Below the pieces are notes generated by a model that did no database searches, had not been told where the DNA came from, and saw only the letters and a program-made list of their open reading frames with translations. DNA of 50,347 bases, from positions 1 to 50,347 of the forward strand of contig JAFGIE010000186.1 of assembly GCA_016929775.1 (NCBI GenBank). The letters run 5' to 3'. The position numbers were made by a program, and so were the translations under genes. Shown piece by piece: positions 5,016-49,536 of this stretch. Each line of letters opens with the position of its first letter. Within the stretch, counting starts at the first letter, position 1. The stretch comes from Anaerolineae bacterium (GTDB lineage Bacteria; Chloroflexota; Anaerolineae; JAFGEY01).

Positions 5016-5039
5016 GGGCCAACAATCTCATACTCGTTC

Positions 5040-5150
5040 TCCGACCCAACGATCCTACCGGCACGGCGTGCCCACGGACGTTGGGCGATAGGGTGCCGCT
5101 GGAAACGGCGTCGCCTCCCGCGTGGGTTTCTGCAAGCCCCTGGAAAGGAG
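5040..5150 (+). ncRNA. Structured 5' leader, candidate Moco/Tuco-type riboswitch
   Basis: The leader of the tungstate locus can fold into consecutive helices. CCCAACG (5045-5051) pairs with CGTTGGG (5079-5085) around a GGCAC/GTGCC hairpin. GCCG/CGGC (5095-5098 with 5106-5109) closes a GGAAA-containing loop. CTCC (5115-5118) pairs with GGAG (5147-5150) around GGGTTT/AAGCCC (5124-5129 with 5134-5139). The stretches GGAAACGGC, GCCTCCCG and GGAAAGGAG recall the molybdenum-cofactor riboswitch class, and the gene context (W/Mo transport) fits. I recall that consensus only partly, so the class is inference; the pairings are seen directly. Confidence 0.4.
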
Positions 5151-5268
5151 AATGCGCTGTGTGTACGCACGATGCATGAGCGTGCTCATTTGTGTTGCGC
5201 GGCGACTCCTTGACGGTGGGCTACCCTCGGAGCCGCCGCGTTGTCTTGCACCAGCATAGGAGGAGATC

Positions 5269-6780: not shown

Positions 6781-7947
6781 ATGAAACCTAGACCGCTGCT
6801 CTGCCTGGTGCTCGCGGCTGCGCTGGTAGCCTGCGCGCAGACCAGGGCGCCTGCCTCCCAGGCGACACAGGCCCAGCCCGCGGCGACCTTGCCAGCGCGC
6901 GCGCAACCCGTGCCGACGCCGACCGAGGCGATCGCGCCGCAGGTCGAGCGCGTGCCGCTGGTGGTCTTTGCCGCCGGCAGCTTGATCGTGCCCTTTGCCG
7001 CCCTGGAAAGCGCGTTCGAGGCGCAGTACCCACACATCGACGTGCGCGCCGAGTATCACGGCAGCATCCAGGTCATCCGCCACGTGACGGAACTGCACGA
7101 CGAGATCGACGTGGTCACCACTGCGGACGCAACGCTGATCCCGATGCTGATGTACGCAGTGGACGTGCCGGAGACCGGACAGCCCTACGCCGCGTGGTAC
7201 GCGCGCTTTGCCAGCAACCGGATCGCCGTCGCCTATACGCCGCACAGCCAGCGCGCTGCCGAGATCGACGCCGCCAACTGGACGGAGGTGCTGTCGGATC
7301 GCAGCGTGCGCGTGGGGCTGTCCGACCCGCGCTTCGACGCTCTGGGCTACCGGGCGCTGATGGTCTTTGCCCTGGCGCAAGAGCTGTATGAGCGCCCGAC
7401 CCTGTTTGCCGACATGTACAACGGGCGCTTCACCAGGCCCGTGACGCTCTTTTGGGACGACGACCGGGCGACGGTGACCGTGCCCGAGATCCTCGAGAGC
7501 CGCCCGGAGACGGGCCTGATCCTGCGCGGAGCGAGCATTCAGCTGATCGCCCTGCTCCAGTCTGGCGACGTCGACTATGCGTTCGAGTACGAGTCGGTGA
7601 TCCAGCAGCACGGGCTGCAGATGCTGCCGCTGCCCGAGGCGCTGAACCTGGGCGGAGATGGGATGGAAGACGTGTACAGCCAGGTACAGGTCAACCTGGA
7701 CTTCCGCCGCTTCGCCTCGGTCAAGCCCCAGTTTCAGGGCGAGCGGATCGGCTACGGGATCACCATCCCATCCAATGCCCCGCACCCCAAAGAGGCAGCG
7801 ACCTACATCGCCTTCCTGCTGGGGCCGGAGGGGCGCGCGATCATGGAGGCCCATCACCACCCGCTCTTCGATCCGCCAGTCGGCGAGGGGTATGCGCACA
7901 TGCCGACCGAGATACGAGCCCTGTGCGCGCCGGCGGAGGCGCCGTGA
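6781..7947 (+). CDS. wtpA: Tungstate/molybdate ABC transporter substrate-binding lipoprotein WtpA
   Basis: The 388-residue protein has signal peptide and lipobox LVAC (Cys18), a short linker, then a type II periplasmic-binding fold. VVFAAGSLIVPF (about 61-72), the HGSIQVIRHVTELHDEIDVV block, TADATLIPMLM, AWYARFASNRIAVAYT and SDPRFDALGYRALMV match the WtpA series closely. In WtpA of Pyrococcus an Asp and a Glu complete an octahedral oxyanion site. Asp186 (FDALGYR) and Glu269 (AFEYESV) are at equivalent places here. Tungstate or molybdate capture outside the membrane is therefore well supported, with tungstate favoured. The gene starts 24 nt after the preceding lipoprotein and its stop overlaps the wtpB start. 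Confidence 0.88.
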   Translation: MKPRPLLCLVLAAALVACAQTRAPASQATQAQPAATLPARAQPVPTPTEAIAPQVERVPLVVFAAGSLIVPFAALESAFEAQYPHIDVRAEYHGSIQVIRHVTELHDEIDVVTTADATLIPMLMYAVDVPETGQPYAAWYARFASNRIAVAYTPHSQRAAEIDAANWTEVLSDRSVRVGLSDPRFDALGYRALMVFALAQELYERPTLFADMYNGRFTRPVTLFWDDDRATVTVPEILESRPETGLILRGASIQLIALLQSGDVDYAFEYESVIQQHGLQMLPLPEALNLGGDGMEDVYSQVQVNLDFRRFASVKPQFQGERIGYGITIPSNAPHPKEAATYIAFLLGPEGRAIMEAHHHPLFDPPVGEGYAHMPTEIRALCAPAEAP

Positions 7948-20837: not shown

Positions 20838-21866
20838 ATGTCATCCAATGCTGACGCGATCGCGCGCGCTTTGGCACAGCTCTACCCAAGCGAGGAACAC
20901 GTCCGCATCCTCGATCTGACACGGATCAGCGACGGATGGGAGACCGAGGTCTATGCGTTCGCCGTGGAACGTGAGCGCTGCGGCGGACGTGCACGCGAAA
21001 CGGAGATCCTCAGGCTCTACCCAGGGGCAGATGCACACGACAAATCGGGGCGCGAGTTCCACGCCATGGCCAAGCTCCACCAAATGGGCTACCCGGTACC
21101 GCAGGTGCTGCACCTGGAGCAGGACAGCGCGCTGCTGGGCATGCCGTTCGTGATCATGGAGCGGATCGACGGAGAGCCGCTTGGCGTCGTGGCAGATCGC
21201 GCCTCGCTCCCGGAAAAGAGGGCGCTGCTGACGCGCTTTTGCCATATGTTCGCCGACCTGCACGCGCTCGACTGGCGCCCCTTTGCCCCCGACGTTTCGC
21301 TGTACGAGGCCCTCGGCGCGTCCGGCATCCTGCGACGCCAGCTCGCACAGTGGCACGCCTTCACGCACGCGCTCCAGAACCACACCTTCGACCCCGTCTT
21401 TGCCTGGCTGGAGGAGCGGGTCGCCAGCATCCGTTGTGGCTCGCCCGCCGTGATCCACATGGACTACCATCCCCGCAACGTCCTGCTCGCCGAGGACGGC
21501 GCCGCCTATGTGATCGACTGGACGAACGTAGACGTCTTGGATCACCGCCTTGACCTCGCTTGGACCCTGCTCTTGACGAGCGCGTACGGACATCCGGAGA
21601 TGCGCGAGATCGTGCTGGACGCGTATCAGCGCGTCGCCGGGCACGAGGTGGAGCAGATCGACTACTTTGAGGTCATGGCGTGCGCGAGGAGGCTGTTCAG
21701 CATCTTGGTCTCGCTCGGCGCCGGCGCCGAGACGCTTGGCATGCGCCCGGGCGCGGAAGCGATGATGAAGAACCGCGCGCACATCGCGAGCGTGTATGAC
21801 TGGCTGTGCGCGCGGACAGCCCTGCGGATTCCCGAGGTCGAAGGGCTGCTCTCCGCTCTCGGCTAG
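20838..21866 (+). CDS. APH-family (aminoglycoside phosphotransferase fold) kinase
   Basis: The 342-residue protein has the APH kinase hallmarks: a nucleotide-binding N-lobe, PFVIMERIDGEPL as hinge (about 109-121), the catalytic loop VIHMDYHPRNVLL (about 207-219), where HxDxxxxN is intact, and the metal-binding VIDWTNVDV (the DFG equivalent). Such kinases phosphorylate small molecules such as choline, homoserine, hydroxyurea or sugars, and only some confer drug resistance. Nothing here points to resistance. ATG at 20838 follows GGGGAGGCGAGT. It starts 63 nt after the Wzz-like gene and may be co-transcribed. Confidence 0.8.
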   Translation: MSSNADAIARALAQLYPSEEHVRILDLTRISDGWETEVYAFAVERERCGGRARETEILRLYPGADAHDKSGREFHAMAKLHQMGYPVPQVLHLEQDSALLGMPFVIMERIDGEPLGVVADRASLPEKRALLTRFCHMFADLHALDWRPFAPDVSLYEALGASGILRRQLAQWHAFTHALQNHTFDPVFAWLEERVASIRCGSPAVIHMDYHPRNVLLAEDGAAYVIDWTNVDVLDHRLDLAWTLLLTSAYGHPEMREIVLDAYQRVAGHEVEQIDYFEVMACARRLFSILVSLGAGAETLGMRPGAEAMMKNRAHIASVYDWLCARTALRIPEVEGLLSALG

Positions 21867-23264: not shown

Positions 23265-23969
23265 ATGCCACAGTTGAAGGACGGGTGTGTCAAACCCGCA
23301 GGCGGGCCGATCCTGCCCGCAGCAGATGCCGGTTCCCCCGCTCTCGGGATGGCACCCCCACAGGAGGTGAAAAAGGTGTTGGCGCAAGTAGGAAAAGAAG
23401 CGATCGATTTTGAGGCCAACGCGTTTGTCGCAGGTGAAGGCTTCAAACAGGTCAAGCTCTCGGATTACAAAGGCAAGTGGATCGTCCTCTGTTTCTACCC
23501 GGGCGACTTTACCTTCGTTTGACCGACCGAGTTGGCAGCGGTCGCTGCCCTCTACGGTGAGTTCCAGGCACTGGGCGTCGAAGTCTTGGCGGCGAGCACC
23601 GACAGCCGCTTCGTGCACAAGATCTGGCAGGAGCAAGAGCTGACCAAGATGGTCGATGGCGGCGTGCCCTTCCCGATGTTGTCCGATGCAGGCGGCAAGA
23701 TCGGCACGATCTATGGTATCTATGACGACGCGGCAGGCGTTGACATCCGCGGACGCTTTCTGATCGACCCGGACTTTATGATCCGGGCAATGGAAGTACT
23801 GACCCCCGAAGTGGGACGCAATCCCGAGGAACTGATCCGACAGGTCAAGGCGTTCCAGCACGTGCGCAAGACGGGCGAGGTCACCCCCTCGGGGTGGCAG
23901 CCTGGGCAGACCACGCTCACCCCGGGCCCCGATCTGGTGGGCAAGGTATGGGAGGTGTGGAAGCCCTAG
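23265..23969 (+). CDS. Selenocysteine-containing peroxiredoxin (AhpC/Prx1 type), read through TGA
   Basis: The 234-residue selenoprotein reduces peroxides in the cytoplasm. The TGA at 23520-23522 is residue 86 and replaces the peroxidatic cysteine in [13 protein letters not shown]; Pro79 and Thr83 complete the PxxxTxxC motif. Typical AhpC sequence continues in frame ([49 protein letters not shown]) to the end. The resolving cysteine is missing: the usual CP at that place is TPSGW, and no cysteine follows U86. Other cysteines are Cys8 and Cys76. ATG at 23265 follows ATAGGAGGATCAT. A second start, GTG at 23376, has a near-perfect AGGAGGTGA site and would give 197 residues without Cys8. SECIS hairpin at 23534-23549. 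Confidence 0.92.
23523..23549 (+). promoter_or_regulatory. Bacterial SECIS element in the peroxiredoxin gene
   Basis: GGCAGC (23534-23539) pairs perfectly with GCTGCC (23544-23549) around loop GGTC. The loop begins 17 nt after the TGA and starts with G, both within the range described for bacterial SECIS elements read by SelB. Confidence 0.8.
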
Positions 23970-47464: not shown

Positions 47465-49027
47465 ATGCCCGAGCACCAGGAAACGATCGTCATCCTCGAC
47501 TATGGCTCGCAGTACACCCAGCTGATCGCGCGCCGCGTCCGCGAACTGAACGTCTACTGCCAGGTCCTGCCCTGGGATGCCCCGGCATCGGAGGCGTTGG
47601 CCCTCGATCCGCGCGGCTACATCCTCTCGGGGGGACCGAACAGCGTCTACGATCCGGGCGCGCCGTCGCTGCATCCCCACGTCACCGGGTCGGGGGTCCC
47701 GATCCTGGGGCTGTGCTACGGCATGCAGCTCTTGGCCCACAGCTTGGGCGGCGTGGTCGTCCCCTCCGGGCGGCGCGAGTACGGCGCCGCGCAGGCGACC
47801 GTCGTCGACGCGGCGAGCCCGCTCTTTGCCGGACTGCCGCCCGTCCTCGAGGTATGGATGAGCCACGGCGACCACGTGGAGCGCATCCCGCCCGGTTTCC
47901 ACCCACTCGCCGAGAGCGACAACACACCCGTCGCCGCCATGGGCGACGACGCGCGCCGCTGGTATGGGATCCAATTCCACCCCGAGGTCCAGCATACCCC
48001 GCGCGGGATGGAGATCCTGCGTCGTTTCCTGTACGACGTGTGCGGCTGCACGGGCGCGTGGACCACCGGGCATTTCATCGAGCAGGCGACGGCGCGCATC
48101 TGCGCACAGGTCGGCGATGGGCTCGTCGTGTGCGGGCTGAGCGGGGGCGTCGACTCGGCGGTCGCCGCGACGCTCGTCCACCGCGCCGTGGGCGACCAGT
48201 TGACGTGTGTCTTTGTCAACAACGGCCTCATGCGCAGCGGTGAGCCGGCGCAGGTCGTGGAAACCTTTCAGCGCGCCCTGGGCATGCGCCTGATCGCGGT
48301 CGATGCGACCGAGGAGTTCCTGAGCGCCCTGCAGGGCGTGATCGACCCGGAGCAGAAGCGGCGTGTGATCGGCGAACGGTTCGTCCGCATCTTTGAGCGC
48401 GAGGCGGCTCGCATCGCCGCACGCGCAGGGCGCGACGTGCGGCGATTCCTCGCCCAGGGCACCATCTATCCCGACGTGATCGAGAGCGCCGGGCGCCCCG
48501 ACGCGCACCGCATCAAGAGCCATCACAACGTCGGCGGTCTGCCCGAGGACATGGACTTTGAGCTCGTCGAGCCGCTGCGCGACCTGTTCAAGGACGAGGT
48601 GCGCCGCGTGGGCGAGGCCCTTGGCCTGTCGCACGACATGGTCTGGCGCCACCCCTTTCCCGGTCCGGGCCTAGGCGTGCGCGTCCTGGGCGAGATCACG
48701 TGGGAGCGGCTCGAGATCCTGCGCGCCGCCGACGCGATCTGGATCGACGAGCTGCGCGCCGCCGGGCAGTACCACAACGTGGCGCAGGCCTTTGCCGTCC
48801 TCCTCGCGGTGCGCAGCGTAGGCGTGATGGGCGACGGGCGTACGTACCAGCAGGTCGTGGCGCTGCGTGCGGTGACTACGGGCGATTTCATGACCGCCTC
48901 CTGGGCTGCCCTGCCACACGACCTGCTCGGTCGAGCCAGCAGCCGCATCGTGAACGAGGTCGAGGGCGTCAACCGGGTCGTATACGACATCAGTTCCAAG
49001 CCGCCTGCGACGATCGAATGGGAGTGA
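47465..49027 (+). CDS. guaA: GMP synthase (glutamine-hydrolysing)
   Basis: The 520-residue enzyme makes GMP from XMP, ATP and glutamine, the last step of guanine nucleotide synthesis. The class I glutaminase domain has the triad: Cys in [11 protein letters not shown] (about 81-91), His and Glu in [10 protein letters not shown] (about 170-179). The ATP-pyrophosphatase domain starts with the P-loop [15 protein letters not shown] (about 222-236), and the C-terminal dimerisation domain has [16 protein letters not shown] and the ending KPPATIEWE, identical to the usual GuaA end. Length is normal. It is followed 27 nt later by a selenoprotein gene, which may share the transcript. Confidence 0.97.
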
Positions 49028-49053
49028 GAGATGCGAGAGGAGAGGAGAACCGT

Positions 49054-49536
49054 ATGGCACGCGTAGAGCTGAACGCCGTCGCGCCCGAGTTCGCACTGCT
49101 GGACTGGAAGGGCGAGACGGTCCGCCTGTCCGACTATCGGGATCGGAAGCACGTGGTGCTGGTGTTCAACCGCACCTTCATGTGACCGTTCTGCCGCCGG
49201 CACATGGCGCAGTTGCGCCAGGGATACGAGGAGTTCGTGTCGCGGGACGCCGAGGTCGTCGTCGTTGGCCCCGAAGATCAGGCAGCATTTGCCGCGTACT
49301 GGCAGGAGGAGGGCTTGCCCTTTGTGGGCCTCCCGGACCCCGAGCACAGCGTGCTCAAGCTGTACGGGCAAGAGGTCAAACTGTTCAAGATGGGCCGCAT
49401 GCCAGCCCAGGTGATCGTGGACAAGTCCGGGCGAGCGCGCTATGTGCACTATGGGCATTCGATGAGCGACATCCCGTCCAACGCCGAGCTGTTGGCGTTG
49501 CTCGATCAGATCAACCAAGAGAACGCCGAGGCATAG
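49054..49536 (+). CDS. Selenocysteine-containing thioredoxin-fold peroxiredoxin-like protein (UxxC), read through TGA
   Basis: The 160-residue protein is an AhpC/TSA-type thioredoxin fold. The TGA at 49183-49185 is residue 44 in VLVFNRTFM-U-PFC-RRH, that is, the motif U44-P-F-C47, where relatives have CPFC. The frame continues with MAQLRQGYEEFVSRDAEVVV, FAAYWQEEGLPFVGLPDPEH and the end VHYGHSMSDIPSNAELLALL, all of which fit redoxin family members. Thr41 stands three residues before U44. Cys47 can resolve the selenenic acid, so a selenylsulfide pair is likely. ATG at 49054 follows GAGAGGAGAACCGT. SECIS hairpin at 49205-49220. The start of the family match and the product length support one gene, not two. 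Confidence 0.92.
49186..49220 (+). promoter_or_regulatory. Bacterial SECIS element in the UxxC redoxin gene
   Basis: TGGCGC (49205-49210) pairs perfectly with GCGCCA (49215-49220) around loop AGTT. An A-T pair can extend the stem to 7 bp. The loop starts 25 nt after the TGA and has G at its second position, as expected for bacterial SECIS. Confidence 0.8.

Follow-up and report, generated by a model that had tools for sequence, protein, structure and literature searches.

Does the TGA codon inside a small gene behind guaA end translation, or is it read as selenocysteine (Sec)? The question arises near the end of a 50,347-nucleotide stretch of Anaerolineae DNA, here called the window. Judging from sequence comparisons, the most likely answer is that the internal stop codon is read as selenocysteine and that the product is a small peroxiredoxin-like redox enzyme.

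An open frame with an internal TGA codon

The gene (49054..49536, plus strand) extends from an ATG at 49054 to a TAG at 49534-49536, and a Shine-Dalgarno-like AGGAG can be read directly 6 nt before the ATG (49043..49047, plus strand). Codon 44 is a TGA (49183..49185, plus strand), and the read-through translation, 160 amino acids with Sec44, contains the site motif F-M-U-P-F-C-R, in which Cys47 (codon at 49192..49194, plus strand) is the partner of Sec44 in UPFC. The preliminary description had placed a TGA where a CPFC motif would have its first cysteine, in a frame that runs on to the C-terminus of a redoxin-like protein behind guaA. All of this is confirmed, and the term redoxin-like can be sharpened to a peroxiredoxin fold by the structure comparison given below. 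The protein matches the AhpC/TSA domain PF00578 with 86 bits (cut-off 26), and guaA, encoding GMP synthase (47465..49027, plus strand), ends 26 nt upstream of the ATG with a TGA stop codon at 49027.

The open frame by itself is weak proof, since the DNA is GC-rich and the window contains 231 open reading frames of at least 80 amino acids. In the tree, the window protein lies closest to sequences from Chloroflexota (L003 at 76% identity, L031 and L002), which on the strength of this one gene makes an origin of the window in that phylum most likely. No guaA was found beside the gene at E 1e-30 in the flanking DNA of the 80 loci of the genome scan described below (flanks of up to 5 kb, many shorter), and a functional link with guaA is therefore not claimed.

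Conservation of the TGA codon among relatives

The preliminary description had proposed to ask which residue the homologs align to the TGA; the answer is TGA itself nearly everywhere and Cys in a few, an outcome in favor of its reading. The genome scan kept 80 of 88 relatives, representing 80 loci from 79 genomes in the Chloroflexota, Thermodesulfobacteriota, Bacillota, KSB1 and other taxa, and all 80 carry TGA at the aligned codon (79 by pattern and L044 by eye). The scan includes cultured strains, among them Longilinea arvoryzae KOME-1, Levilinea saccharolytica KIBI-1 and Fusibacter tunisiensis DSM 24436. In loci L085-L156, which come partly from the same genomes as the first 80, TGA was present in 68 of 72, and the sense codon found in three of them encodes Cys each time. 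Over 171 distinct aligned proteins, a tally in which related sequences are counted repeatedly, the codons were TGA (161), TGC (6), TGT (1), TAA (1) and ACC (2). The ACC in L169 and L176 is an alignment artefact, both being frameshifted matches, and it stays in this tally as one distinct protein (ACC,P). The 117 distinct fetched relatives with at least 55% identity comprise 116 with TGA and one frameshifted match, followed by 17 TGA, 1 TGC and 1 TAA at 48-55% identity, 22 TGA at 42-48%, and 6 TGA, 5 TGC, 1 TGT and 1 ACC below 42%.

Broader scans followed; in the two class scans (298 and 149 genomes) and in the phylum scan of 247 genomes, the site codon itself was read for the fetched loci only. 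Matches were obtained in 93 of 298 genomes from the class of Longilinea (E 1e-30), where G504 holds the sole stop-free match spanning residue 44 and three other stop-free matches are fragments starting later, and in 52 of 149 genomes from the class of G020 (E 1e-25), where the matches without TGA are that of G563 (TAG and TAA) and two starting after residue 44. The phylum of Longilinea had matches in 24 of 201 genomes (E 1e-20), with TGA in 24 of 26 matches. In the phylum of G020, matches occurred in 16 of 247 genomes (E 1e-15), and the 5 of 22 without TGA are four Cys forms in G761 and one ordinary TPGC peroxiredoxin. The wider family is represented in G761 by one TGA form and four Cys forms (L167, L174, L177, L178, L179). 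A scan for Geobacter-type relatives in the class of G034 covered 4 genomes and returned one match, G034's own; no relatives in viral contigs were found by pattern match.

These patterns bear on the idea that the gene is a pseudogene or carries a sequencing error. One decayed-looking relative (L156) does have TAA at the site, but the identical TGA recurs in 80 loci of 79 genomes from several phyla, which makes a sequencing error unlikely, and both halves of the gene are conserved. We give this explanation next to no credence.

Truncated and misread copies in the databases

Among the best 120 of 7936 homologs (E 0.001; 7998 candidates scored), 54 begin after the motif, whereas the residue at the site is W in 55, C in 7 and R, L or D in 4. 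Seven Cys-bearing database proteins (P0003, P0012, P0013, P0015, P0046, P0076, P0082) are protein records only and were left out of the Cys forms. The many records that begin late could be taken to mean that TGA is a true stop and that the functional product is a protein of 110 amino acids starting at Met51. Yet purifying selection acts on codons 2-43 (dN 0.24-0.40 versus dS 0.65-1.68 in 7 pairs), the part missing from such a product holds strands and active-site residues of the predicted peroxiredoxin fold, and Met51 is replaced by Leu in some relatives (for example L079, L091 and L102-L106). A true stop is thus very improbable.

The Trp at the site in 55 of the best 120 homologs might instead point to a changed genetic code in which TGA encodes Trp, although these residues probably stem from gene calls with code 4. 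Against such a change, the neighboring guaA terminates with TGA, the tRNA-Sec anticodon is TCA in four of four loci inspected, and the sense codons at the site in three of the loci L085-L156 are Cys and never Trp. A recoded TGA is accordingly about as implausible as a pseudogene. This kind of selenoprotein is often truncated or misread in databases.

A hairpin under selection downstream of the UGA codon

The perfect hairpin noted in the preliminary description lies at 49205..49220 (plus strand), beginning 20 nt after the TGA. Its sequence, TGGCGC-AGTT-GCGCCA, folds into a 6-bp stem with the loop AGUU at 49211-49214, and its proposed role as a bacterial SECIS element is supported both by published rules and by selection in the family. 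According to a passage in PMC13188914, bacterial SECIS elements have an apical loop of 3-9 nt, a stem of 4-16 bp, a G in one of the first two loop positions, a UGA-to-loop distance of 16-37 nt and a minimum free energy of at most -7.5 kcal/mol. The window hairpin combines a 4-nt loop with 6 bp, the loop G is present in AGUU and, through the codons CAG-TTG, in all 81 genes of a first set, 25 nt separate the UGA from the loop (16 nt in the clade with the displaced hairpin described below), and the folding energy over window codons +6 to +13 is -10.9 kcal/mol.

The 81 genes had been picked without regard to the hairpin. In all of them, codons +9 and +10 are invariably CAG and TTG, whereas elsewhere in the same genes 244 of 1167 Leu codons are TTG and 272 of 425 Gln codons are CAG; Ala52 is encoded by GCG in 74 of 81. 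When synonymous codons were shuffled across the 81 genes, the mean z was -2.44 over codons +6 to +13 and -2.61 over +5 to +12, versus values within 0.43 of zero for 15 other codon stretches, one containing the TGA being left out. Taken singly, 48% of the 81 genes reached p 0.05, and the hairpin of the window gene itself is not significant in this shuffle (z -2.43, p 0.08). In 26 sequences chosen from the 81, two-sided changes were observed at four of the six base pairs and the six-pair stem was paired in 96.8% of the cells (0 of 500 shuffles as high in both cases), while the number of further pair types was matched or exceeded in 24 of 500 shuffles. Folds of 45 or 42 bases gave another minimum-energy structure in some relatives (L005, L009, L159-L161). 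Pairs were also counted in 119 distinct elements, but this count was set aside as evidence for the loop, since the codons CAG-TTG had served to select its rows.

Over the 81 genes, the choice of synonymous codons favors a hairpin at that one place, and it is the family evidence, rather than the window gene alone, that decides the reading as Sec.

Selenocysteine machinery and a second selenoprotein gene

tRNA-Sec was identified in 70 of the 79 genomes of the 80 loci (44 of 50 scoring at least 62.8 bits, plus 26 of another 29 at E 1e-9), and nine assemblies lacked a clear match. Weaker matches were not counted, since at a loose threshold every one of the 50 genomes and 14 controls was positive. 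In the phylum of Longilinea, 151 of 201 genomes contain tRNA-Sec at E 1e-9, namely all 24 genomes with a homolog versus 127 of the 177 others, an association with p 6e-4 without correction for kinship; three of 14 controls were positive at the same threshold (E. coli, Thermus composti and M. jannaschii). SelB scored above its cut-off in 158 of the 201 genomes, including 23 of the 24 with a homolog (the exception is G094), and in two of 14 controls. Within the phylum, tRNA-Sec is frequent with or without the homolog, and so is SelB.

The window also contains a PrxU-type selenoperoxiredoxin gene (23265..23969, plus strand; NF040737 with 370.8 bits, cut-off 270). Its UGA codon for Sec (23520..23522, plus strand) lies in the motif T-F-V-U-P-T, and in a fold of this one gene a SECIS-type hairpin, GGCAGC-GGUC-GCUGCC (23534..23549, plus strand), has its loop beginning 17 nt after the UGA. 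This is an ordinary PrxU, and it supports the use of Sec by the organism. The preliminary description had regarded the two genes as cases with the same logic. The second TGA gene stands, but the two are of different types: because Sec occupies the Thr position (UxxC) in the gene behind guaA and the peroxidatic position in the gene with the TGA at 23520, a shared motif logic is not supported.

Other features were observed in the window. Positions 5027-5165 contain a molybdenum/tungsten cofactor riboswitch, and a gene for the tungstate-binding protein WtpA (6781-7947) is located 1.6 kb downstream of it on the same strand. Positions 20838-21866 gave a weak match to APH(3') aminoglycoside phosphotransferase (46.5 bits versus a cut-off of 205), and the product probably has a general phosphotransferase fold.

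Fold and placement of the protein

The best NCBIfam match, NF040769 (SelL-related), scored 84.5 bits against a curated cut-off of 120 and covers residues 10-105 only; all 36 members scanned matched it at E 0.001. PrxU (NF040737) is not among the six families that match the window protein at E 0.001. A structure predicted from 36 aligned sequences, with Cys in place of Sec, had a pLDDT of 90.6, with residues 109-112 low. Structure comparison identified it as a peroxiredoxin fold, with chains of Bcp1, Bcp4, Tsa2, Prx4 and AhpE tied at the top. Residue 44 aligned with the peroxiredoxin Thr and Cys47 with the peroxidatic Cys (3drn; AhpE chain 5c04), and an ordinary TPGC relative (L172) aligned in the same manner, with its Thr on residue 44.

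The canonical peroxiredoxin motif is PxxxTxxC, from which the window protein departs with Arg40 for Pro and Sec44 for Thr. It has instead a UxxC motif with an in-frame UGA, U44-P-F-C47, in which Sec by alignment takes the Thr position of the peroxiredoxin TxxC. A passage in PMC13188914 gives the peroxiredoxin motif as PxxxTxxU.

Natural variants of the site and of the hairpin

Cys forms are few. The G504 protein, with 49% identity to the window protein, has a CPFC site whose first Cys is encoded by TGC; the codons at the place of the hairpin are CTG ACT CAA CTT CGG, and the short hairpin is gone. tRNA-Sec was not found in the G504 assembly, a single assembly of unknown completeness. Two other Cys forms (L108 and L109), with 37-38% identity, belong to a separate branch. 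Only G504 fits the picture of a Cys form without tRNA-Sec, since the genomes of the other two (G096 and G068) do contain it. L156, from G563, looks like a decaying copy, with TAA in place of the Sec codon and an additional TAG; its hairpin is retained, and the genome contains tRNA-Sec.

In ten relatives (L089, L090, L093, L095-L101), which form a clade with an SH-aLRT value of 99 in a quick tree, the loop is located 9 nt nearer the UGA. The hairpin reads GCGCGCAGUUGGCGCGC in eight of them and GCGCGUCGUUGGCGCGC in two, and the protein has Q/S-L-A-R at positions 50-53, compared to H-M-A-Q-L at 50-54. The Gln/Ser-Leu pair thus follows the RNA loop, as it is displaced along with the hairpin in this clade.

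Eighteen distinct relatives retain the TGA while having Ala, Ser or Thr in place of Cys47, and in 15 of them the matched stretch (126-151 residues) contains no further Cys. A set of 16 distinct, more distant proteins carries UPFA or UPYA (L165, L167, L168, L170, L171, L180-L189, L192), and 14 of them lack another Cys in the matched part. Ten of the 16 belong to the class of G020, five to the phylum of G020 and one to the class of Longilinea. By reading, the hairpin is CATCTG-NNN-CAGATG in 12 of these 16, including one with a wobble; the stem differs in three, and L192 has the AGUU hairpin. UxxU forms are listed in passages of PMC9312934 and PMC13188914. Neither the hairpin shift nor the UxxA forms were met in the portions of the cited selenoprotein literature at hand, which were not searched for these by name.

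Which residue attacks, Sec44 or Cys47?

We hold with high confidence that the gene encodes a selenoprotein of the peroxiredoxin fold in which the hairpin would direct the insertion of Sec at position 44, with Sec44 at the Thr place, Cys47 at the peroxidatic place and Sec44 as the likely nucleophile. The hairpin after the UGA would recruit SelB with Sec-tRNA(Sec), whereby selenocysteine would be inserted at position 44. Located near the N-terminus of the active-site helix, Sec44 would most likely be the selenolate that attacks a peroxide or a disulfide-type substrate. Cys47 may then resolve Sec44 as an intramolecular Se-S bond, which a thioredoxin-like reductant could reopen. Since the window protein has no Cys or Sec besides Sec44 and Cys47, the Se-S bond within UPFC would be the natural oxidized form.

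The roles could also be reversed, with Cys47 as the peroxidatic residue and Sec44 as a mere resolving partner in what is still a selenoprotein. In its favor, Cys47 aligns with the residue that is the peroxidatic Cys in AhpE and in the TPGC relative, but the 18 relatives that keep the TGA without Cys47 suggest that Sec, rather than Cys47, is essential. We consider the reversed roles unlikely, albeit far from negligible, and it is more likely from these comparisons that Sec44 is the nucleophile and Cys47 a helper.

One hypothesis, which is tentative, is that these proteins form a Sec-dependent peroxiredoxin-like branch in which Sec at the Thr position is the sole essential nucleophile and Cys47 is optional (UxxC, UxxA, UxxS and UxxT), while reversion to Cys is rarely kept. 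The RNA element might even write part of the protein, the Gln/Ser-Leu pair moving by 9 nt with the SECIS loop along the active-site helix.

The redox gene is widespread and nearly always carries the TGA. Because gene callers either halve the gene at this codon or take it for Trp, the peptides and the function of the protein probably escape notice in anaerobic communities. The shifted hairpin offers a tractable case for studying how far an mRNA element shapes a protein sequence. Likewise, the natural UxxC, UxxA and Cys forms offer one for determining which chalcogen acts when Sec is placed at the Thr position of a peroxiredoxin fold.

Comparison with known selenoproteins

The protein is most likely a Prx-like UxxC selenoprotein, a kind that was in print by 2005. 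A passage in the Sargasso Sea paper of that year already lists Prx-like UxxC under known families (PMC1088965), part of a 2006 survey mentions it with Syntrophus and Geobacter (PMC1794560), and the GOS paper has, in the part at hand, a Prx-like 1 (PMC2398784); nothing on the Prx-like family was found in passages of PMC1242214, and PMC12013277 contained no match to the terms looked for. The literature search returned no paper with "UPFC" together with "selenoprotein". The Prx-like UxxC thiol:disulfide oxidoreductases share with the window protein the AhpC/TSA domain and the UxxC motif, and WP_010940744.1, listed as Prx-like UxxC with PF00578 in passages of two reviews (PMC13188914 and PMC9312934), matches by description. 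The relatives identified here are mostly from the Anaerolineae and the class of G020 (with Smithella and Syntrophaceae titles), their site is U-P-(F/Y/H)-C, and the AGUU loop is invariant in the first 81 genes. The SelL-related family NF040769 is the best family match, yet the window protein falls below its cut-off.

The legend to Fig. 3 of PMC1914089 describes the TxxU and UxxC peroxiredoxin-like selenoproteins as having homologous motifs with Sec at different positions, and going by this legend the place of Sec in the window protein differs from TxxU in the same way as in those UxxC families. PrxU (NF040737) is also a Sec peroxiredoxin, but its Sec is peroxidatic (T-F-V-U-P-T), whereas that of the window protein is located three residues earlier, at the Thr. 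In the BCP/PrxQ and AhpE proteins (3drn, 3hjp, 5id2, 1xxu), the Pro and the Thr correspond to Arg40 and Sec44 of the window protein.
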